Positions 1,666-30,828 of a stretch of DNA of 32,782 nt are shown here, one piece after another. Source of the stretch: a virus; the IMG/VR virus record IMGVR_UViG_3300032282_001648, positions 1 to 32,782 of that record. One strand, 5' to 3'. The position numbers and the translations under genes were made by a program. Position 1 is the stretch's first letter; each line of letters starts with the position of its first letter. The notes under the pieces were generated by a model. It was not told the origin of the DNA, ran no database searches, and saw only the letters and a list, made by a program, of their open reading frames with translations.

Positions 1666-3581
1666 GCGCCCATCCCAAACTCGGGTGGCGGACTAGCACC
1701 AGCCTGTTGCGCGCTCATAATACCAGACATTTGTTCTTGCGGCGGCACCGCTTCTGCGCCAGCATCCGACTGCTGATCGGGGCTAGGAGGCGCAGCACCC
1801 GATCCATCAGGAGGCATCATAGGCGGTGCCGCCACAACAAAGCGCTCGGGATTCTTAATACCAAACCCCTCGCGCAAAACATGCATAGCAATAGACATCG
1901 GATCAACAACAGAACCAATCAACGGACCCATCGTATTCATCAACGCAATAGCCTGCTGACGCTTAAACGTTTCATTCTGCGGTTGAGTTGAACCCGCCTC
2001 AACCTCAAAATCAAACTCACCTTCAATATCCTCACGCGAATACGGCACCCACACTTGAGCGCCCTGCTCCGTCGTAATGCGAGCAACCTTCTCGGTAGTC
2101 AAAAACGCCTGAGCCAACTGCACCAAACGCTGCGCAATCTCAGAAATAAACGACTCAATACGAGCCAACTTATCCGCAGCACGAGCATTAGCAGCATCCT
2201 GAATAATAGACGCCTCAGTCGCAGTACGCCGCACCTCAGGCAACGCACCACGCATATACTCATTCACACCCGTCACGCGATCAATATCAGACTCAATCAC
2301 CTCAGAATGATTATTATAAAACTGAGCATTAGCAGCATTACGCGGAACAGGAGCAACAACCTCAGGGAATGGCGTATCGTCACGCACGGGCACAAGCGCA
2401 TTAGTATTGCTACTCGTTAGTGCATCAATGCCATCAACATCCAAAGCATCCTTGCGAACAAGATACTTAGGAATATCCAATTTGCGAGCCAACACCATAG
2501 CAGAACGAGTATGATTCAACTCATTCTGCAACGGTTCAATAGCCTCAATCTCCCCAATAGTATAAAACTGGTCAGGAACCTCATAATTACGCAACATCAC
2601 AAACGGATGCCCATACGGATACGGGAACGGCGTTGGCTTAACTAGGAACCCAACATCCTTTTGCTGATCAGCAAAAATAGACAAAGTACCACGAGAAACA
2701 TCATAAAATTCCCAAATAGTCACACGGCCAAGATCATCAGGAACATTCTGCTTATTGTCCTCATTAAACCACTTCAACGAACCATCAGACTTCAACTTCC
2801 GACGAGCCGACTTATTAAACCGCTCATCAGACTTAGCCTGCTCCAGCGGCATAACAACCCGCTGAGCAATCCACTGAAGATCCTTCATACAAGTAGCCTC
2901 AGGATCAATAAACACATCAAACGGCGACACGCGCTCAAAGAACGGCGAATCCTCCGTAACTTCAGTAGTCGTAGTTTCCTGAGAATCAATAATATCAGAC
3001 TCAGACGGCATTTCAGCAGCCATATCAGGATTCTGCTGAGCATACTGATCCAACAAATCATTCTGCACACGAATGTTCTGCTGCATCTCCTCTTCGGTCA
3101 GATCACGAATTTCCTCATGGAAATTCCAACCAACCTTGCCCCAACCATGCCCATAAATCAAAAAGTCCTGAACAATACGACGATTCTCTTCACGGAAATC
3201 AAAATGACGCCACCAATAGTTGGCAATAGCCTCAACCATCAACGCCTTATTCTGCTGATCCATATCTTCATCGCGAGAAGACACAGTAATCTTAGGATAG
3301 TTTACAGCAACAGAAGGACCAATCACGTTAATCGTAGAAAACGCAATAGCAACAGCAATGCGATCGTCCTCAGACCAACCATCAAACATCTTCAAGCGAT
3401 ACACATCACGCAAACGCTTCCACGTGCGATCAAACTTTTCGTCTTCACGCCAACGCTTAGCAGACGTAATACGATCGCGGTATCGCTTCAACAAAGAAGC
3501 ATCGCTCACAACAGGCAAACCAGAATCCGCTGGTGCGCCCCAAGTGCCAACTTCATTCGGCGTAGGAGTAATACCAACCAT
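1662..3581 (-). CDS. Portal protein (head-tail connector, 639 aa)
   Basis: Forms the dodecameric ring at one capsid vertex through which DNA is packaged and ejected, and which anchors the tail. The size, its place just downstream of the large terminase, and the pattern of the protein fit portals of the short-tailed, P22-like type. Visible portal-like stretches are an N-terminal helical part with WKRLRDVYRLKMFDGWSEDD, a central VSPFDVFIDPEA tract, and the helix-rich segment TGVNEYMRGALPEVRRTATE followed by a long helix reading IESFISEIAQRLVQLAQAF (the stem/wing region). The C-terminus is Pro/Gln/Ala-rich and probably disordered. I chose the ATG at 3581, which has AGGTGGG upstream and overlaps the previous stop (TGATG). 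An in-frame GTG lies three codons earlier at 3590. Confidence 0.9.
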   Translation of the reverse strand: MVGITPTPNEVGTWGAPADSGLPVVSDASLLKRYRDRITSAKRWREDEKFDRTWKRLRDVYRLKMFDGWSEDDRIAVAIAFSTINVIGPSVAVNYPKITVSSRDEDMDQQNKALMVEAIANYWWRHFDFREENRRIVQDFLIYGHGWGKVGWNFHEEIRDLTEEEMQQNIRVQNDLLDQYAQQNPDMAAEMPSESDIIDSQETTTTEVTEDSPFFERVSPFDVFIDPEATCMKDLQWIAQRVVMPLEQAKSDERFNKSARRKLKSDGSLKWFNEDNKQNVPDDLGRVTIWEFYDVSRGTLSIFADQQKDVGFLVKPTPFPYPYGHPFVMLRNYEVPDQFYTIGEIEAIEPLQNELNHTRSAMVLARKLDIPKYLVRKDALDVDGIDALTSSNTNALVPVRDDTPFPEVVAPVPRNAANAQFYNNHSEVIESDIDRVTGVNEYMRGALPEVRRTATEASIIQDAANARAADKLARIESFISEIAQRLVQLAQAFLTTEKVARITTEQGAQVWVPYSREDIEGEFDFEVEAGSTQPQNETFKRQQAIALMNTMGPLIGSVVDPMSIAMHVLREGFGIKNPERFVVAAPPMMPPDGSGAAPPSPDQQSDAGAEAVPPQEQMSGIMSAQQAGASPPPEFGMGA

Positions 3582-3853: not shown

Positions 3854-5448
3854 AATGTCCCCTGCATATTGTGCGCCCCCAACGGAACGGCCTGTTCTTT
3901 GGAATCACGCAAAATCCGATCCTTAAAATAATTAAACGTACCGTAAACCTCTTCAGGTTTACGATACTCAGGTGCTACCGCAAAACGGAGCATCTGGTTA
4001 GCAATAGCAAGAGCAATAACCCGATCGTCAAACGGACTGCCACCCATTTGTCCTCGTTCGTTGCGAACATACGTCAACATCTCCCCAACAGTAGCCTTAT
4101 CATGAATCACAAGTCCCTGACGCACCGACATACCCAACTCGTCAATCATCAATGGCTTAGATGCCTTTGTCGTCAACCAACCAATCTTAGACTGCCGATT
4201 CTGCCATGTGGTCTTACCATCCAACTCGCGCCTAACGTAAATCTTGGGATACGTCAAACGCTGCAAAGCCTTATTTGTTGTCAAACCGTGGTTATTCGTT
4301 TCAACGGCAATCAAAGCCTGATTATAACGCCATGCGGTTTTAGCAATTTCCTCAGCAAAAAGATCAGGATCAATATGCCCGTGCCACTGAGCAACCTGCT
4401 CATTAGTCTGAAGACAAAGTACTTGAAGACAAGAATAATCTCCATGTTCCAAACCTTCAGCAACGTCAGCGCCAATTACATACTGATGATCTAGAAGTGG
4501 TGGTACCCATTGCTTATAGTTAGTTTCTGAAGATACCTTGATAAACGTCGGAGAGCGCTTCGACCCTTGAACTTCAGCGTCCAAATATCCATATTCAGGA
4601 ACCCTCGTTTCCATCTTTCGTAGAGAATCAACATCAAAAACAGGATTACCCGAACGAATAAACGCTTCTTCAGGATTATCAGGATACTCCTGCGCCAACT
4701 GCCACGGTAGCATATTGGCTTGCTTAACCTCATACCAATCATCATTACGATCAGTATTAGCCGACCACGGATAAAACAAATGCGTAAACTGACTATTACC
4801 AGACACCGCCTTGTTCCAAAACTCGTGGAAGAAATTACCAGCACCATTAGCCGTACTCAAACCAATGACACGACCACCAACGTCAGTTACAGGCTCAATA
4901 GAAGCCCACGCCTCCTCAGCATTCTCAAAGAACGCCCACTCGTCCACAATAATCAAGGACACCGCACTACCACGCGCAGGATCCTCCTTAGACGGCATCG
5001 ACTCAATACTAGACCCATTATCAAACGTAATCTTCATCACGTTCTTATCAACACGCTTAGCAGCCCGTTCCTTCAACCACTCAGGCAACCGCTTCCAAGC
5101 ATAATCAGTCTTAGACAACAACTTCTGAGCCTCGCGCTCATTACGAGACAACATGACAATAACATTGTCAGGCCAAAACATTGCCAACCACAAACAATAC
5201 GAAGCAAACAGCGTAGAATACCCAATCTGACGGGCCTTCAAAATAATAACGTACCGATCCTCCATAACCCGCTGCAACGTGTCCAACTGCGCCTCACGCA
5301 AATCAAACAACAACGCACCATGCTCAGGATGCTGAATATACACGTTCTCCGTCAAAAACCGAACACAAGCATCAAAATCCTTAGCAGACTTACCACGCCA
5401 ACGACGAAACTTGCCCTCCTGCAAAAGTTCAGTCTTAGAAAACCCCAC
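3850..5448 (-). CDS. terL: Terminase large subunit (532 aa)
   Basis: The DNA-packaging motor: an N-terminal ATPase translocates DNA into the prohead, and a C-terminal RNase H-fold nuclease cuts the concatemer. The ATPase shows a variant Walker A at 71-79 (KARQIGYST), Walker B LIIVDE at 165-170 with D169 and E170, and the coupling motif STAN at 198-201. The nuclease shows GADVAEG with D328, AVETNNHG with E383, and FDDRVIALA with D474/D475, which are the three acidic metal-binding positions. Length is normal for the family. The start is GTG at 5448, overlapping the small-terminase stop (TAGTG) with GAGGGG just upstream. It is the second gene of the leftward late operon. Confidence 0.95.
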   Translation of the reverse strand: MGFSKTELLQEGKFRRWRGKSAKDFDACVRFLTENVYIQHPEHGALLFDLREAQLDTLQRVMEDRYVIILKARQIGYSTLFASYCLWLAMFWPDNVIVMLSRNEREAQKLLSKTDYAWKRLPEWLKERAAKRVDKNVMKITFDNGSSIESMPSKEDPARGSAVSLIIVDEWAFFENAEEAWASIEPVTDVGGRVIGLSTANGAGNFFHEFWNKAVSGNSQFTHLFYPWSANTDRNDDWYEVKQANMLPWQLAQEYPDNPEEAFIRSGNPVFDVDSLRKMETRVPEYGYLDAEVQGSKRSPTFIKVSSETNYKQWVPPLLDHQYVIGADVAEGLEHGDYSCLQVLCLQTNEQVAQWHGHIDPDLFAEEIAKTAWRYNQALIAVETNNHGLTTNKALQRLTYPKIYVRRELDGKTTWQNRQSKIGWLTTKASKPLMIDELGMSVRQGLVIHDKATVGEMLTYVRNERGQMGGSPFDDRVIALAIANQMLRFAVAPEYRKPEEVYGTFNYFKDRILRDSKEQAVPLGAHNMQGTL

Positions 5449-5861
5449 TACCCCTCACCCAACAACGCCTGCAACTCCGCAGCCAACTCATCATCAGACA
5501 ACCCAGCCACACGAGCATCCTCAATCACAACCCGCTTAGGCTGCAACCGATCCACATACTGCAAATACAACGACGCCGCCTTCGTATCCCCACGACTAGC
5601 AGCCGTCCACAAACTATCCACAACCGCCTGAATCCTATCAGGCGACACATTCAACTCAGCCAACCGCTGCTCATACGCAGCCTTAAACCAACGATCATTC
5701 TGCCAACGAAACACGGTAGACTCCGCAACACCATGCGAACGCGCCCACTCCTTCTTCGACCCCAACCGCTCAGGATCAGCCAACCACTCAATATACTCCA
5801 ACTGCAACGCAGACAACAAACCACCCTGCGCCTTAACCCGTGCCACAGACTCATGTGCCAT
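5448..5861 (-). CDS. terS: Terminase small subunit (137 aa)
   Basis: Recognises the packaging start site and hands DNA to the large subunit. The sequence contains a helix-turn-helix around SKKEWARSHGVAESTVFRWQ (about residues 37-56), typical of phage small terminases, followed by a helical oligomerisation region with PDRIQAVVDSLWTAASRGDT and YLQYVDRLQPKRVV, and an acidic C-terminal tail (LSDDELAAELQALLGEG). The ATG at 5861 is preceded by AAGGAGGTG, the strongest ribosome site on this strand. The longer in-frame reading to 6032 lacks one and would run through the divergent gene. It is the first gene of the leftward packaging operon. The adjacent divergent region (5862-5906) is the natural place for the late promoter and possibly a packaging site. 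Confidence 0.9.
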   Translation of the reverse strand: MAHESVARVKAQGGLLSALQLEYIEWLADPERLGSKKEWARSHGVAESTVFRWQNDRWFKAAYEQRLAELNVSPDRIQAVVDSLWTAASRGDTKAASLYLQYVDRLQPKRVVIEDARVAGLSDDELAAELQALLGEG

Positions 5862-5906: not shown

Positions 5907-6056
5907 ATGAAACGACGCACCATCTGCCCCAACTGTGATCAGCAACACAACGATCCTTACGCCGAAGACAGTGACTGGTGCTATACTTGCGTCATCGAAA
6001 CCCTCGCCAACCAAGAAGACGACGACATTCAACTTGGCGAAACTTTCGGCCCATAA
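5907..6056 (+). CDS. Small zinc-ribbon-like protein (49 aa)
   Basis: Starts MKRRTICPNC. It carries two cysteine pairs (CPNC at 7-10 and CYTC at 25-28) separated by 14 residues, the spacing of a small zinc ribbon, and ends in an acidic tail rich in Asp and Glu. Such proteins often act as transcription or translation adaptors in phages, but no specific family is recognised. The ribosome site is weak, which is the main doubt. The cysteine pattern and the clean TAA support a real gene. It is the first rightward gene after the divergent operator and is followed by the structured-RNA region. Confidence 0.5.
   Translation: MKRRTICPNCDQQHNDPYAEDSDWCYTCVIETLANQEDDDIQLGETFGP
5979..5987 (+). promoter_or_regulatory. 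Candidate extended -10 box (TGCTATACT) inside the 49-aa ORF
   Basis: TGC immediately precedes TATACT, matching an extended -10 element. The same TATACT hexamer is found in front of the genes at 11523 and 14823. No good -35 hexamer lies 16-18 bp upstream. If used, transcription would begin near 5994 and produce an RNA that runs to the terminator at 6256-6279. It lies within coding sequence and could be chance. Confidence 0.25.
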
Positions 6057-6279
6057 TACGAGACACTCGTAAAAGCGGGATTAGCGCCCGACCGCTAGGA
6101 TCGGGTCCACGCACAGCGTGGGGATGCTAGGGACTGACCACCCTCGTAAGGCGCTCGCAGAATGTAGAGACTCCGATCATGTGTCCTCAGCGGGTCTACC
6201 TCAGTCGTGCCCACCTACCGTGGGCAACAAGAGAAGAAGACACATGGCAAAGGGCGCAGCGCATAGGCGCTGCTTTTTT
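6057..6279 (+). ncRNA. Putative structured, possibly pseudoknotted non-coding RNA
   Basis: This stretch holds no convincing ORF but many complementary segments: TACGAG/CTCGTA (6057-6071); CCCGA 6087-6091 with TCGGG 6101-6105, overlapping an alternative TAGCG 6082-6086 with CGCTA 6093-6097; CCACGC/GCGTGG (6107-6121); and TGCCCAC/GTGGGCA (6208-6226). GTAGA plus CTC at 6164-6173 can pair with GGGTCTAC at 6192-6199, while CATGTGTC at 6178-6185, inside that loop, pairs perfectly with GACACATG at 6239-6246. Together these make an H-type pseudoknot. It ends in a typical intrinsic terminator. The structure is inferred by eye and there is no match to a known RNA class. Alternatives are a leader RNA or a packaging-site region next to the terminase genes. 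The rest of the gap, 6280-6388, shows only a short CA repeat (about 6305-6318). Confidence 0.35.
6256..6279 (+). terminator. Intrinsic terminator with six-T tract
   Basis: Stem GCAGCGC (6256-6262), loop ATAG, stem GCGCTGC (6267-6273), then six T residues. This is the classic rho-independent layout and the best T-tract in the window. It closes the structured-RNA region on the rightward strand and isolates the next promoter at 6389. Confidence 0.75.
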
Positions 6280-6388
6280 ACCCAGCACTCGTAACGAGCA
6301 GGTAAAACACACACACACAACGATCCAGAAGCCACACATAATGTTCACGGAGAGTGACTTTCCAAGAGCCACCCCACACCACACCAAA

Positions 6389-6417
6389 TTGCGGCTACCT
6401 CCTTATATATACATAAT
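6389..6417 (+). promoter_or_regulatory. Candidate sigma-70-type promoter for the high-G+C gene
   Basis: TTGCGG at 6389-6394, a 17-bp spacer containing an AT-rich TTATATATA run, and CATAAT at 6412-6417 (five of six matches to TATAAT). Predicted transcription start is near 6424, giving a leader of about 155 nt that begins with an exceptional C-rich tract (6421-6455). The AT-rich island contrasts sharply with the G+C-rich sequence that follows. Confidence 0.5.
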
Positions 6418-6944: not shown

Positions 6945-6976
6945 GGCGGGCGACCTTCGGGTCGCCCGCCTTTCTT
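6945..6976 (+). terminator. Strong intrinsic terminator, copy 1 of a repeated module
   Basis: An 11-bp stem, GGCGGGCGACC with GGTCGCCCGCC, closed by a TTCG tetraloop and followed by TTTCTT. It lies directly after the high-G+C gene. The same 32 bases recur exactly at 7898-7929. A further 9-bp hairpin (CGTGACGGC/GCCGTCACG) follows at 6979-7001. Confidence 0.85.
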
Positions 6977-7897: not shown

Positions 7898-7929
7898 GGC
7901 GGGCGACCTTCGGGTCGCCCGCCTTTCTT
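7898..7929 (+). terminator. Strong intrinsic terminator, copy 2 of a repeated module
   Basis: Sequence identical over 32 bases to 6945-6976: the same 11-bp stem, TTCG loop and TTTCTT tail. It ends the four-gene cluster 7021-7880. After a one-base deletion the similarity continues through GCGTGACGGCA, so the copy extends into the next leader. Confidence 0.85.
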
Positions 7930-14669: not shown

Positions 14670-14753
14670 GCGGGAGTGGCGGAACAGGCAGACGCGACAG
14701 ACTCAAACTCTGTTGCCCGCAAGGGCGTGGGGGTTCGATTCCCCCCTCCCGCA
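14670..14753 (+). tRNA. tRNA-Leu(CAA)
   Basis: A full cloverleaf can be read: acceptor GCGGGAG/CTCCCGC, a D-arm of the Leu type (GCGGAACAGGCAGACGC), anticodon stem ACAGA/TCTGT with loop CT-CAA-AC, a long variable arm GCCC-GCAA-GGGC, and T-arm GGGGG-TTCGATT-CCCCC, with discriminator A at 14753. Anticodon CAA reads UUG. CCA is not encoded. The long variable arm identifies a class II tRNA. UUG codons are common in the rightward phage genes, so the tRNA may supplement a codon that is scarce in the host. Confidence 0.93.
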
Positions 14754-14755
14754 CG

Positions 14756-22170: not shown

Positions 22171-25100
22171 TTACTTCTTCTTAGCCGCAGCCGCAGCAAA
22201 CCTGCGACGCAAAATCTCAGATTCAATATCACTCTTAGTATTGGTTCGCAACGGCAAACCAAAGAACGACGCCACCGACGCCCCACGCCGCTGCTCGTAC
22301 TTGCCCTCATTCGGGAACAAGCGTCGTGCCCTAGCATACGGAGGCGCAAACTGCTCTACCGCATAAGCGGCGCGCCCCTGCCCACCAGCAAACTCGCTCA
22401 ATGTTCGCCCAAGCGCATTGTTAAACATGAACGGCTTGTCCATATGCTTGCGGTCCTTAGGCAACGGAATGCCCTTAAAGAATTGCTCACCCTTCATAAA
22501 CTCCAACGGAGTTTTAACAACAGGCGTCATCATGGACAGATAGTTATCTGCCAAACCAGTGTAAGACTTAGCCTGTCGGGGATTAAAATTCTTAAAGTCG
22601 GGCAAAGAACTAGCAATCGTTTGCGTAAATGGAAGATCGGGAGTGATATACAAACGTTGACCAGTTTTACCAAACGGAGTCCGAATACCAAACAAGTCAT
22701 TTGCAATATACGACGGCACAATCTTTTCGGGATCAGACATCGATTCAATTTCATTCTTGGCAATAAAATACTTTGTATACTTGTTGGGACTAGACGCAAT
22801 CATTTCCATCTGCAATGGCATGTTGTAACGAGTCCACGTATAGAACGGAATAAAGCGCTTTACAGTGCCGCGTTCAAACGCAGACAAGTCGGCGTAATCA
22901 AAGTGGTAACGCACAATATCGTCGATTGCCGTGTCAAGCGTCTGGCCCTTCAGCAGTCGGTCCCAACCAAGACCGCCACGCAAGTAAAATTCTACGTTTT
23001 CACCAGCCTTAGCACTAACCTGAATGGGAGCAAAGTCTGAAGCCCACGGCTTCAGCGACATGCCCGCTTTGGCGCCCAATTCGGCATTACCGTACTGGCC
23101 GCCACCAAGATACTCAAGCAATCGTGCCATGTTTTCAGACTCTTGAGGCGGCAACGTGCCCCTTTGCCAAGCCTTGTAAGCCTTGCGGAACTTCGCAACC
23201 GACCCAATTTCAACGTCCGCAAGATAGTTGTTAAACGTTCCACCAAGATAGTTACGCAAATGAAAACCTGGAGTTGCAACCTGCCAACGCTTCAACCAAC
23301 CAACAAGCGTATCGTAATGCTTCAAAAACTTCTTGAAACCTTCAGGCGTCGTAACCTTACCAACACGATTCAAAGCCTCAGCAATTTCACGCGGCGTATA
23401 CAGGTTCGGATTCGACGCCAACTCCTGATATGCGCCACTGGCAATAGCCTCACGAATTCGTTCCTGCGTCGAAGTCAACGCAATGTTTTGTTCCGCAGTC
23501 CTAACAGCCTCATCATAAAAACGCTGACTAGTAAGGAACTGTGCTTCGGCACGACGGGCCTCAGCCACGTGCACCAACGCCGCACGACCAGCCTCATTAG
23601 TCGTCTGACGAGCAGCATCCAACAACTCATCAGCCTGCGTAGACACTGCGCGAGCCTTTTCCAACGCACTAACAACCTGTGGGCTACCGCGTCCCTGCGT
23701 CTTCACAAACTGAATCTGCTCATCCAAAATGTTTGTAAAGTCGCTACGATCAGTCAAAATACTTCTAATGCGAGCAGCAGAACTACGAGCATCAACAGCA
23801 GTCCCAATAGCGTCTGCAAACAAATTATCAGACGATTCAGCAGCAGCAGCAGGATCTGCAGAAGAAATACCCTCCACGTGCGAAGCAAACAAATCGTCCT
23901 TCGACATCGGAGCAGGAGTAGTCTCAATACCCATCGCCTGCTTTGTGGCCTCTAGGCGAGCATTCTTGGCAGCCTCAAACGGGTCAGGCGGAATTTCGCC
24001 TGCTCCACCAGTAGGCGGCTTGGGCGGCGGGACCGCCCCACCGCCAGCACCACCAGCAGCCGCAACCAACTCCTCAGCATCACGTGCAGCATTAACCTGC
24101 TGATCGGCAACAATGCGAGTAGTTGCACGACCAACATCCACGGCACCAGCCTTTGGCGCATTCTTAGCAAAATTAGACCATGCCCGATTAGCCGCAGTAA
24201 CACCAGAACGGTTCAAACCCTTGGCGCTCTGGTATTCAGACTTATCCAAAATGCGACGCAACTGCTTCTGCTGACGTTCCGTCAGCATGCCCATCCGTCG
24301 CTCCACCTCAGTAGCATCCTGCCATGCAGCCTGCCCACCCTGCAACTTGGCCTCAAACGGCACACTGCGAGGACGAGCCGCAACACCAGCCACAGGAGCC
24401 TCCACAGGGGCCGTAGGAGCGATTTCAGCGACAGGTTGGGGCGCAACCCCAGCCGCCTCTCCAGCGGCCTTTGTAGCGCCCTCAGAACCGCCAGCAACAC
24501 TGGCATAAATGCGGTTCAATTCCCTACGAGCAGACCGTCGCAAAGCACCCTTCTGCGTCTTGTTTGCAGGATCAAGCAGAATCGCGTCCACCTGAGCCTG
24601 AGCCTCAGGCGATGCAGCCAAAGCCGCTCGCCGCTCAGCAGCCACCGCAGGATCATCCCACAACGGACCAAACGCATCACTCGTAGAAGCAACAGCAGCA
24701 GGGGGCGCAGTTTCAGGAACAACAGCCGTTTCAGGTGCCTCAGTCGCAACCTTAGTTGCCTTCGGCACACTGCCTTCAGCAATCTTCTGCTCCACATTCT
24801 TAATCATGTTATCAATCTTGATAACACCACGCTCAGAAACAACCCCATTAGAATCCAAAAACTTTGGATCTTCCATCACGTTCTTAATGCGACCAGCCAA
24901 ACCAGAATCCGCAGAACTAGCAGCCTTAATACGATCAGCAAAAGTTGCGGTATCAATATCCTGTGCACGAGCCGCACGCTTAGCCTTATACGCCTCACGC
25001 TCAGCCGACTTGGCACCCTTAGCAGCACGCTGCTCAACCTGCTGAGTTGCTTCCTCAGCAACTGATTCCACAACAGAATCCGCAGTTTCAACCGCAGGCG

Positions 25101-28100
25101 TAGTGGCCGCAGGAACAGCAGCACCAGTCTTGCTTTCAGCAAACTTGATCATCCCATCAAGTTTCTTAGCACCAGCCTTCGTCAAACCAGTCTCAGGATC
25201 AAAATACTTCGGGTCCTTCAAAATAGCAGCAGCCCGATCAGGCAAAGACGAATCCCTAGCAGCCAACTCCTTAATACGCGCAATCTTGGTCCCAACATCA
25301 TCACCAGTTTGCGCAACCTCAGGCGCAACACTTTCAACAACGTTGTCAGCAGTTTCGTTAACCACATTATCTACAAGATTTGCCTCGTTAGCAGTATCTT
25401 CTGCCAACAACTTTGCCTGCTCCTTAAGAATAAGATCCTTAAAAGCCTTCTTGCCGCCAGTCGTCAACTTGCCATCAACAACATGCTTAGGATCAGCCAT
25501 AAGATCAGTAATCTTAGCCAAAATTTCAGGATCACTCTCAGACAAAGAGTAAACAATTTCCACATACTGCTGAACATCTTCTGGCGCATTAGCAATAGCA
25601 TCAGCCATAGCCGCCGAAGGAGGAGCCTTAACAGGCTTAGGCTTAGCCGTATTCAAAGCAGATTCAAACAAACCAAGATCATCTTCAAGCGTTCCACCAG
25701 ATGCCCAACGAGAATCCACAACTTTCTTGTTGCCCCAACCCACACCACGCGGTTCAACAGTTTCTACAAGTTTATTAATTCCCTCAGTTGCCGCAACTTC
25801 ATCATGCGAAATACGCATAGCATTCAAATAGCCGCGAGAACTTTCGTTGTAATATTCATTATAAACATTACTTTCGATCTTCTCCAAACGCTTTTGACCG
25901 CGTGCGCTAAGTTCACCATTCTTCTTAAACAACTTCTCAGTTGGTTTAGCAGCAGCATCTTCAGCACGAGCGCGACGCATAACCTCTTCCAACATTTGAT
26001 CATATTCTTGATCAAAATTATCAAGAGTGGACTTACCGCGCGACCAATCCCAAGCAATATTCAACTTATTCTTACGAGCCAAAGCAATATCGCGAGCCGT
26101 TTCGCTAGCAGACGCCTTTTCAACAGCCATGTTGCCGCGAATGCGAGGCTTAATCCCAAGCCTTGTTGCTTCTTCATCAAGCGCAGTACGCGCATTCTTT
26201 AGATCAAACAAAATTTCAGTAACATGTTCAGCCGCAGAATCAATCAACTCAAAATTATTAGCACGCTTATTCAGCACTTCAATAACTTCAGGACGCAAAT
26301 GTCCACCCAATTTTTGAATCCTAGGCAACACGTTCTCATAAAAATGACGAACAATTTCCCACGGCTTCATTCCGCTATGACTTGCTTGGAACTCAACAAA
26401 TTCCTGCAAAACCTTGTTGATACGCGTAGTATCAATTCCAGTCGCGCCCTGCCAAACAGAAACAGCCTTACCCTTACCCGTGCCCTTAAAATTCACGGAA
26501 AGCAACGCTTCTTCAAGATTAGAAATATCGTTTGAATAACCACCACGAGTCCAACCAAAATGCAAATCCACACGATCCGCAAGATTAGTTTGCAAACTAC
26601 GCAATTCTCCAATGATGCCACGATCAGTCATGTCAATCATTGCTTGCTGAACTGATGTTTCCCCAGCAATAATAGCCTGTCGATATTCTTCAATGCGACT
26701 AAACAAATCCTTTGCCGTAGCACGAAATTCGGTATTCAGAACATCACCAAGAACAGAATCAAATTCTGGATGCAACGGTTGAATACGGCTATGAATCATA
26801 GCAATATCATCAACACTCAATTCACCATTTGCGCGCAAACTCCGCAAAAGATTACCAGCGTCTTCAGGTTCCAATTCTGCAATCTGACGAGCATACTCAT
26901 CCAACCGATTAGTATATTCAGGATCAGTTTTCAACAATTCATTATAACGTTCAGCAGCAGTGTGTTCTTGCATATAAATTTCCTGAACCTTGGCGATATC
27001 ACCATAGGTTTCAGCCATAACATCAGGAGTATATGCTTGTGCAGCAAGACTACCGTAAGCAGTCTCTCCACCACGCAAATCACCAATAGCACGAGCCTGA
27101 TTTCCAGCAAACCCAATGCTTGCAAGACGGTCCGAAACCTCACGCGCCGCCTTTTCTCTAGCCTCTGGACCATACCCCAAACTAGAAAGCGTCTTCGGAT
27201 CAAACGCTCCAATATCGTCCAAATACTGTCGCTCAATCACATCGGCAACATCAGCACTCAAATTCTGATGCGCAACAAACTCGTCAATCATCTTACGAGC
27301 CTGCCTTGGCTTAACCTGAGCCAACATGCGCTTAAATTCAACAATCGTCTGCTCTTTATCCGTCAAACGAACAACAGGAGCCTTCTTGCCCTTTGAATAT
27401 GCCTTCTTAATAACATCATACTCTTTTTGAGTAATGCTACCTTCAGCCAACTGTTCATCAAGGCGCGCCAAACGCGCCTCCTTGGCAGCCTTTGCTTCTG
27501 CAGCCCTCGCAGCCCTTTCAGCCTTTTCAGCCGCCTTGCGAATTTCCTTCAACTCGGAAGCAGTCTTTTCGCCTTCCTTAATATACCATTGGGCAATCTC
27601 CATTGACTGTTCATCGCCAATTTGAGCAGCATGCGCATAAATAGACATGCCTTCCTCAAACAACTCATCAGCGCGAGCCGACTCGCCCCTCAAGGAAATA
27701 ACTCGCTCCATAATATCGCCAGCAACAGTATCGTTGTTTGCGCCAGCCAACTTATTCAAAAATTCCATACTGGAATACTTGCGTTGAATTGGCCCACGCG
27801 CTTTAGCCTGTTCCAACAAAATTGAGCGCTGCTTAGGCGACATTCCTTCTGGAAGAAACATATTGTCAGCCGATTCTGTAAAAAGATCAGTTGCGCCCTT
27901 AGGTCCAAATTCGCTAGAACCAGCAATATTAGTTACACTACGAGTACCAACCTCGGTATGACCACCCCGAATTCCAGCACCCGCAGAACTTTCATGCCTA
28001 GCCGCACGAGAAGCCCAAATTTGATCCAACTGTGGATCGCCAGAAGGCTCAGGAACATACCGATCAATACTAGAAATTTTGCTCGGAGGAGGCACAATTT

Positions 28101-30828
28101 GTTTCACGGGCGACTTGCCCTTCATGCGCTCCTTTGCCGCATCCATGCCAAGTTGTTCGGTTTGTTCAATTTGCGCTTGCGCTGCATCGGCAATATCCAT
28201 GTCCACCTCGGCGGTACCAACCTTGCCAGTCGCACTTTCAAACTGCGACCCAAAATCAGTACCAGCCAAACGTACCTTAGTGCGCGAAGCCCCACCAATA
28301 GCCCGTTCAGTTTCAGTCAATTGCTGCCGCAAAGAAGACAAACGCTCACGAGCAACTTGCTTAACCTGCTGACTAGCGTTAGGAAATTGCTTAATCTTGT
28401 TTTCAAGTTCAACAATTTTCTGCTGAATTTCACTTTTAACCCGAATCAAACGATTCACTTCAGCATCAACAGCAGCAACTCGCTCCGCCTGCACGCCAGC
28501 AACTTCACCATCAGGGTGCGCTCCACCCCGAATACGCGGTTGCGGCCCGCGTTGTCCGCCACGCAAACGAATCTCACCCTCAGGATTCATGCCACGCACA
28601 TTGGAACGCGGTTGCGGAACGCGACCCTGTTCCCACTGCTCAAAACGAGTATTCAACCAATCACCAAACGTGCGAGTCTCACCACGATTAGCAACCAACG
28701 CCTGATACTCAACCAAAGCATTATCCAACTGCGTTGGAGTCAAATGATCCAAAATGCGCATGTCCAACTTGCCGCTATTCACCGCACGATTAATAACCTC
28801 ATTACCAAGATCAATATCCTGCGGACGCACAGGCGTCCGACCCTGCAATTGCAACTCTTCCAACACGCTGTTATACGCACGATCGCCCTGAGCCGCAGCC
28901 TCAGGAATCACCTGCTGAAGTTCAGACTGCGCAGCATCCGCAGCAACCTGAGATTCAGCAGCAGTCTTATTGGCAGTATCAACTTCGCCCTTCAGTGAAT
29001 TCAACGTCTTGTCGATACCCTGCTTCACCTTAGCAAAATTAGCCTGCTGCTTCAACTTAAACTTAAAAGGCATAGCCGTGTCGTCAAGAAGAACACCAGT
29101 ATCACGCAAATGCCCAAGCACGCGACGACGCGCTACAGCATTTGTCATGCCCTTAATGTATTCCTCCATCGTCTTAATAACATCATCCTCATAGAAACCA
29201 ACATCAACGCCAGTATCCTGAGCAAGACGATTCATATTCTCACGAACAGTAGCGTTAGTTTCGCCAGCCTGAGGAAGAATAGTACGCGCACGAGTAGACG
29301 CAGGACGGCCAGTCCCAACACCAGTACCCTGCGAATAACCGCGAGCCTGCTTCCACTCATCAGTCAAAATACGCGGGAAATAGTTATCCAACTCTTCGAT
29401 CGGAACACCCTCGCGCTCCGCAACCCGATACATTTCATGCAAGAACGACTTAAGTTCCGTTGCGCCCTTAATCTTGACCAACTCGGCAGGATCACTAATA
29501 GACTCAATCGCATTACGAGCGGTCTTCATTTCCTCCTGAGTCAAATTCAAATCTTTGACAATATTGCGACGGAACACTTCAGTAGCACGCTTGCCCAAAC
29601 GCCCCGTACCATCCGCTGCGCCGCCCTCAATGGCCTTAAAGCCATTGTCTTCCAACAAGCGCATGCCAGCAGCGTTGTACGCGTTGCCCTTACGCACCGC
29701 AGTACGCAATTCAATACCCTGCCAAGCCTTTTCTGGATCACCAGAACGCAACAACTTATACGACTCAGGGGCAGCACCAGACAACTTGGTGCCCAACTTC
29801 CCACCAAATTCCGTAGCCCGCAACGCATTACGCGGCACAGCCAACTTTCTAACAATCGGATTAGTAACCTTACGAGGCAACAGCGGGATAACAACTTCCT
29901 CGCCCTTGTAACCAAGCAAACGTCCACCACGACCAGTAAACGGAACCCTCAATCCCACGCCATGATGGGTCTTGGGGAAATACTTAACCGCCTGCTCGCC
30001 ACTCAGACCAGAAGCACCCTTCTTGCCTACGGTAGCAACCGCTTCACGCGCAGCAACAAGTTCGGTTTCCTTTGCCAAACCTTCCGCAGCAGCACGAGCA
30101 ATTGCCTGCTCCGCAGCGCTAGCACCCTTAGCAGCAGCAGCCTGCGCCGCCTTTTCTCCAGCCTCCGTAATCAGAACGCCAACACGTTCCATGATGCCGC
30201 GACCAACAGCCTGAACGCTACCCTTAATGCCGCCAGTAGCCCACGTAATCGGGTCCAACCCGATATCACCAGCAAGACCAATACCGATCTTGACGCCGCG
30301 ATTATTAAGAATTGTTCCATCGTCCCAAGTGTGCTTGTCCAAGCCACGCTGCAAGTACGTGCCGACGCCAGTATGCGCCCACATGTCCTTGCGGTTCTTT
30401 TCATTCTCATAAGAGTTTACAATACCCGCAACATCAAAACCCTTACCCTGAACCGCATCAGCAATCTCACCAACAGCACCAAGACCAACACCACGACCCA
30501 AAGCACCAATCGCTCCACCAACATCACCCTGCTCAACTTCCTGAGCAAAATCGCTTACGTGAGAAGCAACATAAGAACGAGAAAGATCAAGAGTCTTCAA
30601 CGCCTTACCAACAGGCGACTCCATCACGTCGGCCAAAGCACCCTTCCAGCCGCCAATGTTCGTACCCTTTGCCTTTTGACGCGCAGCAAGAGCAGCCGCA
30701 TTGCGTGCAACATACTGCTTAGAAGTATTAGCACGCCTTGCCTGCATATTCTGATTATAAAAAGCAGTGCGGTTACTAACACCGCGCGCCGCCTCAAGTG
30801 CTGCATCAAAATTCGGGTAATTAGCCAT
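22171..30828 (-). CDS. Giant internal virion / ejection protein (2885 aa)
   Basis: Probably packed inside the capsid and injected with the DNA to help it cross the cell envelope. The N-terminal region (about 1-480) includes GLAGDIGLDPITWATGG near residue 185, a motif seen in giant virion proteins of short-tailed phages. The C-terminal region (about 2460-2885) has PGFHLRNYLGG near 2520 and RFIPFYTWTRYNMP near 2660. The middle is long helical and Ala/Glu/Lys-rich sequence (for example about 1097-1127), including six loose repeats between about 1620 and 2220. No polymerase or lysozyme motif was recognised. It fills 8.7 kb, over a quarter of the window. The ATG overlaps the previous stop (TAATG). 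Confidence 0.8.
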   Translation of the reverse strand: MANYPNFDAALEAARGVSNRTAFYNQNMQARRANTSKQYVARNAAALAARQKAKGTNIGGWKGALADVMESPVGKALKTLDLSRSYVASHVSDFAQEVEQGDVGGAIGALGRGVGLGAVGEIADAVQGKGFDVAGIVNSYENEKNRKDMWAHTGVGTYLQRGLDKHTWDDGTILNNRGVKIGIGLAGDIGLDPITWATGGIKGSVQAVGRGIMERVGVLITEAGEKAAQAAAAKGASAAEQAIARAAAEGLAKETELVAAREAVATVGKKGASGLSGEQAVKYFPKTHHGVGLRVPFTGRGGRLLGYKGEEVVIPLLPRKVTNPIVRKLAVPRNALRATEFGGKLGTKLSGAAPESYKLLRSGDPEKAWQGIELRTAVRKGNAYNAAGMRLLEDNGFKAIEGGAADGTGRLGKRATEVFRRNIVKDLNLTQEEMKTARNAIESISDPAELVKIKGATELKSFLHEMYRVAEREGVPIEELDNYFPRILTDEWKQARGYSQGTGVGTGRPASTRARTILPQAGETNATVRENMNRLAQDTGVDVGFYEDDVIKTMEEYIKGMTNAVARRRVLGHLRDTGVLLDDTAMPFKFKLKQQANFAKVKQGIDKTLNSLKGEVDTANKTAAESQVAADAAQSELQQVIPEAAAQGDRAYNSVLEELQLQGRTPVRPQDIDLGNEVINRAVNSGKLDMRILDHLTPTQLDNALVEYQALVANRGETRTFGDWLNTRFEQWEQGRVPQPRSNVRGMNPEGEIRLRGGQRGPQPRIRGGAHPDGEVAGVQAERVAAVDAEVNRLIRVKSEIQQKIVELENKIKQFPNASQQVKQVARERLSSLRQQLTETERAIGGASRTKVRLAGTDFGSQFESATGKVGTAEVDMDIADAAQAQIEQTEQLGMDAAKERMKGKSPVKQIVPPPSKISSIDRYVPEPSGDPQLDQIWASRAARHESSAGAGIRGGHTEVGTRSVTNIAGSSEFGPKGATDLFTESADNMFLPEGMSPKQRSILLEQAKARGPIQRKYSSMEFLNKLAGANNDTVAGDIMERVISLRGESARADELFEEGMSIYAHAAQIGDEQSMEIAQWYIKEGEKTASELKEIRKAAEKAERAARAAEAKAAKEARLARLDEQLAEGSITQKEYDVIKKAYSKGKKAPVVRLTDKEQTIVEFKRMLAQVKPRQARKMIDEFVAHQNLSADVADVIERQYLDDIGAFDPKTLSSLGYGPEAREKAAREVSDRLASIGFAGNQARAIGDLRGGETAYGSLAAQAYTPDVMAETYGDIAKVQEIYMQEHTAAERYNELLKTDPEYTNRLDEYARQIAELEPEDAGNLLRSLRANGELSVDDIAMIHSRIQPLHPEFDSVLGDVLNTEFRATAKDLFSRIEEYRQAIIAGETSVQQAMIDMTDRGIIGELRSLQTNLADRVDLHFGWTRGGYSNDISNLEEALLSVNFKGTGKGKAVSVWQGATGIDTTRINKVLQEFVEFQASHSGMKPWEIVRHFYENVLPRIQKLGGHLRPEVIEVLNKRANNFELIDSAAEHVTEILFDLKNARTALDEEATRLGIKPRIRGNMAVEKASASETARDIALARKNKLNIAWDWSRGKSTLDNFDQEYDQMLEEVMRRARAEDAAAKPTEKLFKKNGELSARGQKRLEKIESNVYNEYYNESSRGYLNAMRISHDEVAATEGINKLVETVEPRGVGWGNKKVVDSRWASGGTLEDDLGLFESALNTAKPKPVKAPPSAAMADAIANAPEDVQQYVEIVYSLSESDPEILAKITDLMADPKHVVDGKLTTGGKKAFKDLILKEQAKLLAEDTANEANLVDNVVNETADNVVESVAPEVAQTGDDVGTKIARIKELAARDSSLPDRAAAILKDPKYFDPETGLTKAGAKKLDGMIKFAESKTGAAVPAATTPAVETADSVVESVAEEATQQVEQRAAKGAKSAEREAYKAKRAARAQDIDTATFADRIKAASSADSGLAGRIKNVMEDPKFLDSNGVVSERGVIKIDNMIKNVEQKIAEGSVPKATKVATEAPETAVVPETAPPAAVASTSDAFGPLWDDPAVAAERRAALAASPEAQAQVDAILLDPANKTQKGALRRSARRELNRIYASVAGGSEGATKAAGEAAGVAPQPVAEIAPTAPVEAPVAGVAARPRSVPFEAKLQGGQAAWQDATEVERRMGMLTERQQKQLRRILDKSEYQSAKGLNRSGVTAANRAWSNFAKNAPKAGAVDVGRATTRIVADQQVNAARDAEELVAAAGGAGGGAVPPPKPPTGGAGEIPPDPFEAAKNARLEATKQAMGIETTPAPMSKDDLFASHVEGISSADPAAAAESSDNLFADAIGTAVDARSSAARIRSILTDRSDFTNILDEQIQFVKTQGRGSPQVVSALEKARAVSTQADELLDAARQTTNEAGRAALVHVAEARRAEAQFLTSQRFYDEAVRTAEQNIALTSTQERIREAIASGAYQELASNPNLYTPREIAEALNRVGKVTTPEGFKKFLKHYDTLVGWLKRWQVATPGFHLRNYLGGTFNNYLADVEIGSVAKFRKAYKAWQRGTLPPQESENMARLLEYLGGGQYGNAELGAKAGMSLKPWASDFAPIQVSAKAGENVEFYLRGGLGWDRLLKGQTLDTAIDDIVRYHFDYADLSAFERGTVKRFIPFYTWTRYNMPLQMEMIASSPNKYTKYFIAKNEIESMSDPEKIVPSYIANDLFGIRTPFGKTGQRLYITPDLPFTQTIASSLPDFKNFNPRQAKSYTGLADNYLSMMTPVVKTPLEFMKGEQFFKGIPLPKDRKHMDKPFMFNNALGRTLSEFAGGQGRAAYAVEQFAPPYARARRLFPNEGKYEQRRGASVASFFGLPLRTNTKSDIESEILRRRFAAAAAKKK
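24170..25960 (-). repeat. Six diverged protein-level repeats in the giant virion protein
   Basis: A unit of about 45-50 residues recurs near residues 1620-1655, 1757-1800, 1847-1898, 1962-2013, 2064-2110 and 2173-2220. Its shared shape is a helix with D-x-x-L, then D-P-K-x-x-x or similar, then G-x-[LV]-[ST]-x-x-G-x-K-x-[LI]-x-x-[IM], as in KDPKYFDPETGLTKAGAKKL and EDPKFLDSNGVVSERGVIKI. Copies are separated by Ala/Pro/Val-rich linkers. At the DNA level they are too diverged to look like direct repeats. Confidence 0.55.

Follow-up and report, generated by a model that had tools for sequence, protein, structure and literature searches.

The window, by which we mean the whole stretch of DNA analysed, is a 32.8-kb virus record of an uncultured phage, in which leftward and rightward genes diverge from one intergenic region. 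The leftward genes include TerS (5448-5861), TerL and an SU10/P22-like portal, and the rightward block, at approximately 6.5-20 kb, encodes GP88, DUF932, a DnaB-like helicase, a primase domain and endonuclease VII. A tRNA-Leu (CAA) gene is situated within this replication block (14670-14754). Farther along, a leftward ORF of 2885 residues (22171-30828), probably a large virion protein, has a counterpart of 2526 residues at the matching place in the record G003. A 49-aa ORF with two CxxC pairs (5907-6056) resembles a zinc ribbon and gave no Pfam match; by eye, similar ORFs occupy the same place in the small relatives.

Between the two diverging gene blocks, directly downstream of the 49-aa ORF, lies the core of a conserved structured RNA (Table 1). 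Ten distinct copies are known, seven of them from small phages, the window counted, and three from a lineage of large phages. The other six small-phage copies (L017, L018, L019, L021, L022 and L023) were found through relatives of TerS and patterns of conserved blocks; L020 and L025 repeat two small-phage copies and were left out of the distinct count. The same searches yielded the large-lineage copies, which are L016 (190-kb contig), L041 (68-kb contig) and L104 (contig filed under a Janthinobacterium assembly). The covariance model R1 matched 11 records at E ≤ 2e-32. It was unmatched in sister small phages and likewise in MW202803, the GenBank entry with the closest related terminase, which lacks the RNA. 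The collections searched may leave out records that resemble the window very closely.

Table 1. Features of the RNA locus, in coordinates of the window.
Feature	Position	Strand	Sequence or remark
Candidate sigma70-type promoter	6028-6057	+	TTCAAC-N18-CATAAT; start expected near 6063-6065
RNA core	6068-6206	+	Matched by R1 (147 positions) at 146 bits; ten distinct copies
P1	6075-6079 with 6154-6158	+	GCGGG/CUCGC; closes junction; nearly invariant; one G-U pair
P2	6086-6091 with 6101-6106	+	Loop with conserved UAGGA
Candidate tertiary contact	6097-6098 with 6200-6201	+	AG (P2 loop) with CU (after P5)
P3	6107-6112 with 6116-6121	+	CCACGC/GCGUGG
P4	6129-6132 with 6141-6144	+	UGA in loop
P5	6164-6168 with 6195-6199	+	GUAGA/UCUAC; loop length varies
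Candidate long pseudoknot	6178-6185 with 6239-6246	+	CATGTGTC/GACACATG; one register in six of seven small phages
Hairpin	6208-6226	+	UGCCCAC/GUGGGCA; directly 3' of core; predicted from folding 110 nt downstream
Intrinsic terminator	6256-6279	+	GCAGCGC-ATAG-GCGCTGC-TTTTTT (U6); directly after the RNA

The core of the window is 62-68% identical to those of the large-phage copies, and the highly conserved blocks are CGUAAAAG, AYUAGC, GGA, AA-GCGC, AAUGUAG and CUAC-UCA. A coding interpretation of the region was rejected because the core lengths (139, 146, 147, 146, 141, 136, 137, 152, 153 and 154 nt) differ by non-multiples of three. No conserved reading frame spans the core, in line with the absence of a gene claimed by the sequence-only reading.

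The same reading had proposed testing for compensatory changes with a covariance model. For R1, a structure of 27 pairs was written by hand for alignment A4. The test is favoured by the fact that this structure was drawn after inspecting the same alignment and its RNAalifold consensus, yet the shuffles and slid controls remain far apart from it. Standard pairs filled 95.1% of the pair cells compared with 77.8% in shuffles, and both-sided cells numbered 44 compared with 13.9. The covariation score was 0.477; shuffles gave 0.162 and slid controls no more than 0.139. Both-sided compensatory changes were present in 15 of the 27 pairs, all within P2, P3 and P4 (15/17). The plus strand is fixed by the excess of G-U cells (21) over A-C cells (2). 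Folding of the single sequence was only mildly unusual (z -1.88 on the plus and -2.77 on the minus strand), so that folding energy by itself is weak evidence and it is the homologues that settle the reality of the structure.

According to the alignment, P1 closes a multiway junction holding P2, P3 and P4, and the hairpin P5 follows. Both-sided changes occurred in five of the six pairs of P2 (98.3% of cells paired), in all six of P3 (100%) and in four of the five of P4 (77.6%), the innermost tested pair of the last being unformed in the window. P1 was paired in 100% of cells with one-sided changes only, and P5 in 98%; as both hardly vary, they are conserved helices not proven by covariation. 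A pairing of AGCGCC with GGCGCU was rejected, being broken in L018, L019 and L021. Hairpins follow the core also in the other small phages, with differing sequences.

Several finer elements had been proposed from the window alone. The hairpin given as joining 6164-6173 with 6192-6199 was confirmed as P5, with the shorter arms 6164-6168 and 6195-6199. In a compact pseudoknot suggested for 6082-6105, the CCCGA/UCGGG arm is real and equals P2, while the UAGC/GCUA arm had no compensatory change and had one of its four pairs broken in six of the eight sequences with letters there; this pseudoknot is not supported. The exact complementarity of CATGTGTC and GACACATG, read as an H-type pseudoknot, is present. 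When the P5 loop was paired against the 100 downstream bases and their dinucleotide shuffles, the pairing gave p = 0.10 in the window and 0.013 in L022, with a Fisher value of 0.04 over all ten copies. Six small phages share a 9-nt register in which 46 of 54 pairs are Watson-Crick, and 16 of 720 permutations were as good, figures that flatter the register because partners were chosen partly by complementarity. No equivalent was found in L023, L041 and L104, where the best pairings were at chance level, and L016 has a different pairing of the P5 loop common to no other copy. The pattern is thus suggestive of a long pseudoknot in small phages, not family-wide. A contact of the P2 loop with the CU that follows P5 is possible: it is paired in all ten copies (shuffles 49/500) and rests on a single compensatory swap, from G-C to C-G, in L023. 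An anti-Shine-Dalgarno switch with GGAGGUAG of L016 was dropped, since neither L041 nor L104 retains that sequence.

Searches for a known class, also proposed earlier, placed no Rfam 15 family on the RNA of the window at the gathering threshold or at E ≤ 5, the sole gathering-level match being a tRNA elsewhere. The nine homologue loci likewise had no family matched on the RNA, and permissive scans returned only scores far under gathering. Four versions of the RNA were used in blast searches of GenBank phages, with no match or short weak ones only. Among 84,980 species genomes scanned with an exact pattern, one copy turned up; diverged copies would escape such a scan. In 300 genomes of the order of the Janthinobacterium assembly, no copy other than that assembly's own was found, and a viral scan through the clp-like gene described below added no large phages. 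The pattern matches L015, L024, L026-L040, L042-L103, L105, L106 and L107 were judged by reading to be chance or coding (L026-L077 as grouped 80-base stretches, six in full). No phage RNA of this kind was described in the titles and abstracts covered, which mostly exclude subscription journals. With covariation above both controls, the R1 matches and no Rfam family, the earlier suggestion of a new phage RNA outside known classes is borne out, and the core at 6068-6206 on the plus strand almost certainly represents a new class of structured phage RNA, one that would extend the list of such classes beyond Rfam.

Upstream of the RNA, an extended -10 noted earlier was replaced by a homologous sigma70-type promoter, which is weak in the window (p = 0.043 for the best-scoring alignment) and strong in small relatives. 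At the homologous position, six of the seven small phages have TTGACA or TTGACC promoters (p 0.001-0.004 each); their hexamers end 19-44 nt ahead of the core, and the Fisher p over all ten copies is 4e-11. The promoters upstream of the three large-phage copies were not above chance (p 0.18-0.40). The terminator with six Ts was correctly recognised by the sequence-only reading, and none with a U-tract was recognised just past the RNA in the other nine copies. Within the rightward block of the window, two identical strong intrinsic terminators (6945-6970 and 7898-7923) have an 11-bp stem and a TTCG loop, and a similar one is present in L022 (5896-5921). The gene block of the large phages yielded no strong terminators.

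The two lineages that have this RNA in common have almost no proteins in common. The small-phage copies adjoin terminase genes. In phages of the large lineage, the RNA separates a recA gene pointing leftward from a clp-like gene pointing rightward (both named from their translations). TerL is 9.4-9.6 kb away, and the core precedes the clp-like start codon by some tens of bases with no terminator recognised between. Where the record length allows judgement, the RNA heads a same-strand gene block of 14-16 kb in both lineages, which consists of replication genes in the window and of virion and terminase genes over approximately 16 kb in the large phage. The first genes of the blocks differ between the lineages and look unrelated, and the first likely gene of the window starts about 370 nt past the core, beyond the terminator.

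This arrangement bears on two explanations that each fit one lineage only. A packaging or genome-end element, either a pRNA-like RNA or a pac/cos landmark, was among the roles suggested earlier and would suit the small-phage copies, which adjoin TerS and lie approximately 180 nt from another conserved DNA site. It is disfavoured because the large-phage copies lie far from TerL, between recA and clp; the RNA is also absent from sister small phages with related TerS, and pRNA was unmatched in Rfam, so that we consider such a role very unlikely. The phi29 pRNA (Rfam RF00044) is likewise a structured phage RNA of similar size, with which the small-phage copies share the nearness to terminase genes; no RF00044 match was found, and the large-phage copies are far from terminase. 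A cis-regulatory leader responding to a ligand or protein and controlling the first downstream gene would suit the large phages, where the RNA forms the 5' leader of the clp-like gene, and a multiway junction with a hairpin is a common riboswitch layout. However, the first genes look unrelated between the lineages, and in the window the first one lies far past the core and its terminator; control of this kind appears rather unlikely.

Comparison of the proteins of the window and G003 with all 190 kb of the large-phage record G001 gave few matches: repeated short ones typical of a cell-wall-binding domain, a 101-residue match (G003 only) and a 24-residue match, although short or very diverged proteins would be missed. 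The only matches of the window look like the repeated cell-wall-binding domain. On these comparisons, it seems unlikely that the two lineages share a phage protein partner, which points to a conserved host machine as the target or to an RNA acting alone. Since the fold and most of the sequence are kept across lineages with almost no common proteins, the RNA probably targets something that all hosts have. Conceivably, this RNA alone captures RNA polymerase or the ribosome, a machine universal among hosts, and moved between unrelated lineages as a stand-alone module without a protein partner, though we would put this at somewhat less than an even chance.

Of the roles suggested earlier, an early/late switch and a small RNA acting on the host are both viable, and control of transcription suits the genomic position best. 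The explanation that we favour, tentatively, is a leader RNA acting in cis on the host transcription machinery in the manner of HK022 put. Host RNA polymerase would transcribe the RNA from the sigma70-type promoter at the head of the long one-directional block; the nascent RNA would fold and bind the elongating polymerase or another universal host factor, and the bound leader would let the 14-16 kb block be transcribed with greater processivity or resistance to terminators. The strong small-phage promoters and the intrinsic terminators inside the block of the window and L022 are consistent with this. In the large phages, the block has no strong terminators and the promoters are not above chance, and both speak against a leader. 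Moreover, any non-coding RNA would find room in divergent intergenic regions, and the U6 terminator close behind the RNA of the window suits a discrete RNA equally well.

Such a discrete RNA, of approximately 215 nt (about 6063 to 6279), would act in trans by binding host or phage mRNAs or a conserved host machine, for which RNA polymerase, the ribosome and an RNase were considered. It is a serious contender, itself well short of probable. Its own promoter in the small phages, the terminator of the window, the hairpins after the core in other small phages and the lack of a common protein partner all agree with it. In the large phages, however, the RNA would need to be processed from mRNA, because the core adjoins the clp-like start with no recognised terminator between, and in none of the other six small phages was a counterpart of the window's U-tract terminator recognised. 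The window terminator thus points to a discrete RNA, and the absence of a recognised one before clp to a leader. The leader is preferred, by a small margin, because the RNA precedes unrelated first genes yet always heads a long same-strand block. A counter-defence RNA, or a decoy aimed at a host system, would explain the patchy distribution over unrelated phages and the strong sequence constraint in unpaired blocks; no likeness to a known RNA family was found, and we give this a slim chance at best.

In HK022, put RNA is situated downstream of early promoters and works in cis with no need of phage proteins, on terminators at least 10 kb away; it consists of approximately 70 nt with two stem-loops (PMC9378689). 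The present RNA resembles it in heading a long block behind a promoter on the same strand, with no dedicated phage protein evident, although this placement includes a strong promoter in six of the seven small phages, a weak one in the window and chance-level ones in the large phages. It differs in its core of 136-154 nt with five helices and a multiway junction. As a put-like antiterminator, its nascent form would bind the zinc-binding domain of the RNA polymerase beta' subunit and cause readthrough. Other structured RNAs offer more partial likenesses. The EAR RNA of Bacillus eps operons is similarly situated in the upstream part of a long operon; the present RNA differs in being phage-borne, outside an exopolysaccharide operon and without a matched Rfam family. 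RNA C and RNA D of T4 (the species 1 and 2 stable RNAs), whose role is unexplained, are phage RNAs of similar length. One difference is their position at a cluster of tRNA genes; another is that RNA C, as read from its sequence, terminates in a T-arm like that of tRNAs. Identity with them was rejected, since R1, searched up to E = 10, had no match in L118, the tRNA region of T4. To our knowledge, few phage RNAs act without protein, and the RNA described here would offer a compact system in which to test how transcription or translation is controlled by RNA only.

Some further features were observed in the records. In L104, phage genes are joined at approximately 2200-3010 to a host-like gene resembling a chemotaxis receptor, possibly through misassembly or insertion. 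The 190-kb phage record G001 has about ten tRNA genes and a predicted tmRNA gene (L133, 9798-10188). At 6386-6412 of the window, AAATTGCGGCTACCTCCTTATATATAC is nearly unchanged in L017, L018, L021 and L022 and occurs as a variant in L019. Its opposite strand contains a perfect Shine-Dalgarno sequence (AAGGAGGT) with no conserved frame behind it, and in several relatives it is followed by G/C runs with a GGTACC-like palindrome. This segment is a candidate packaging or terminus site.
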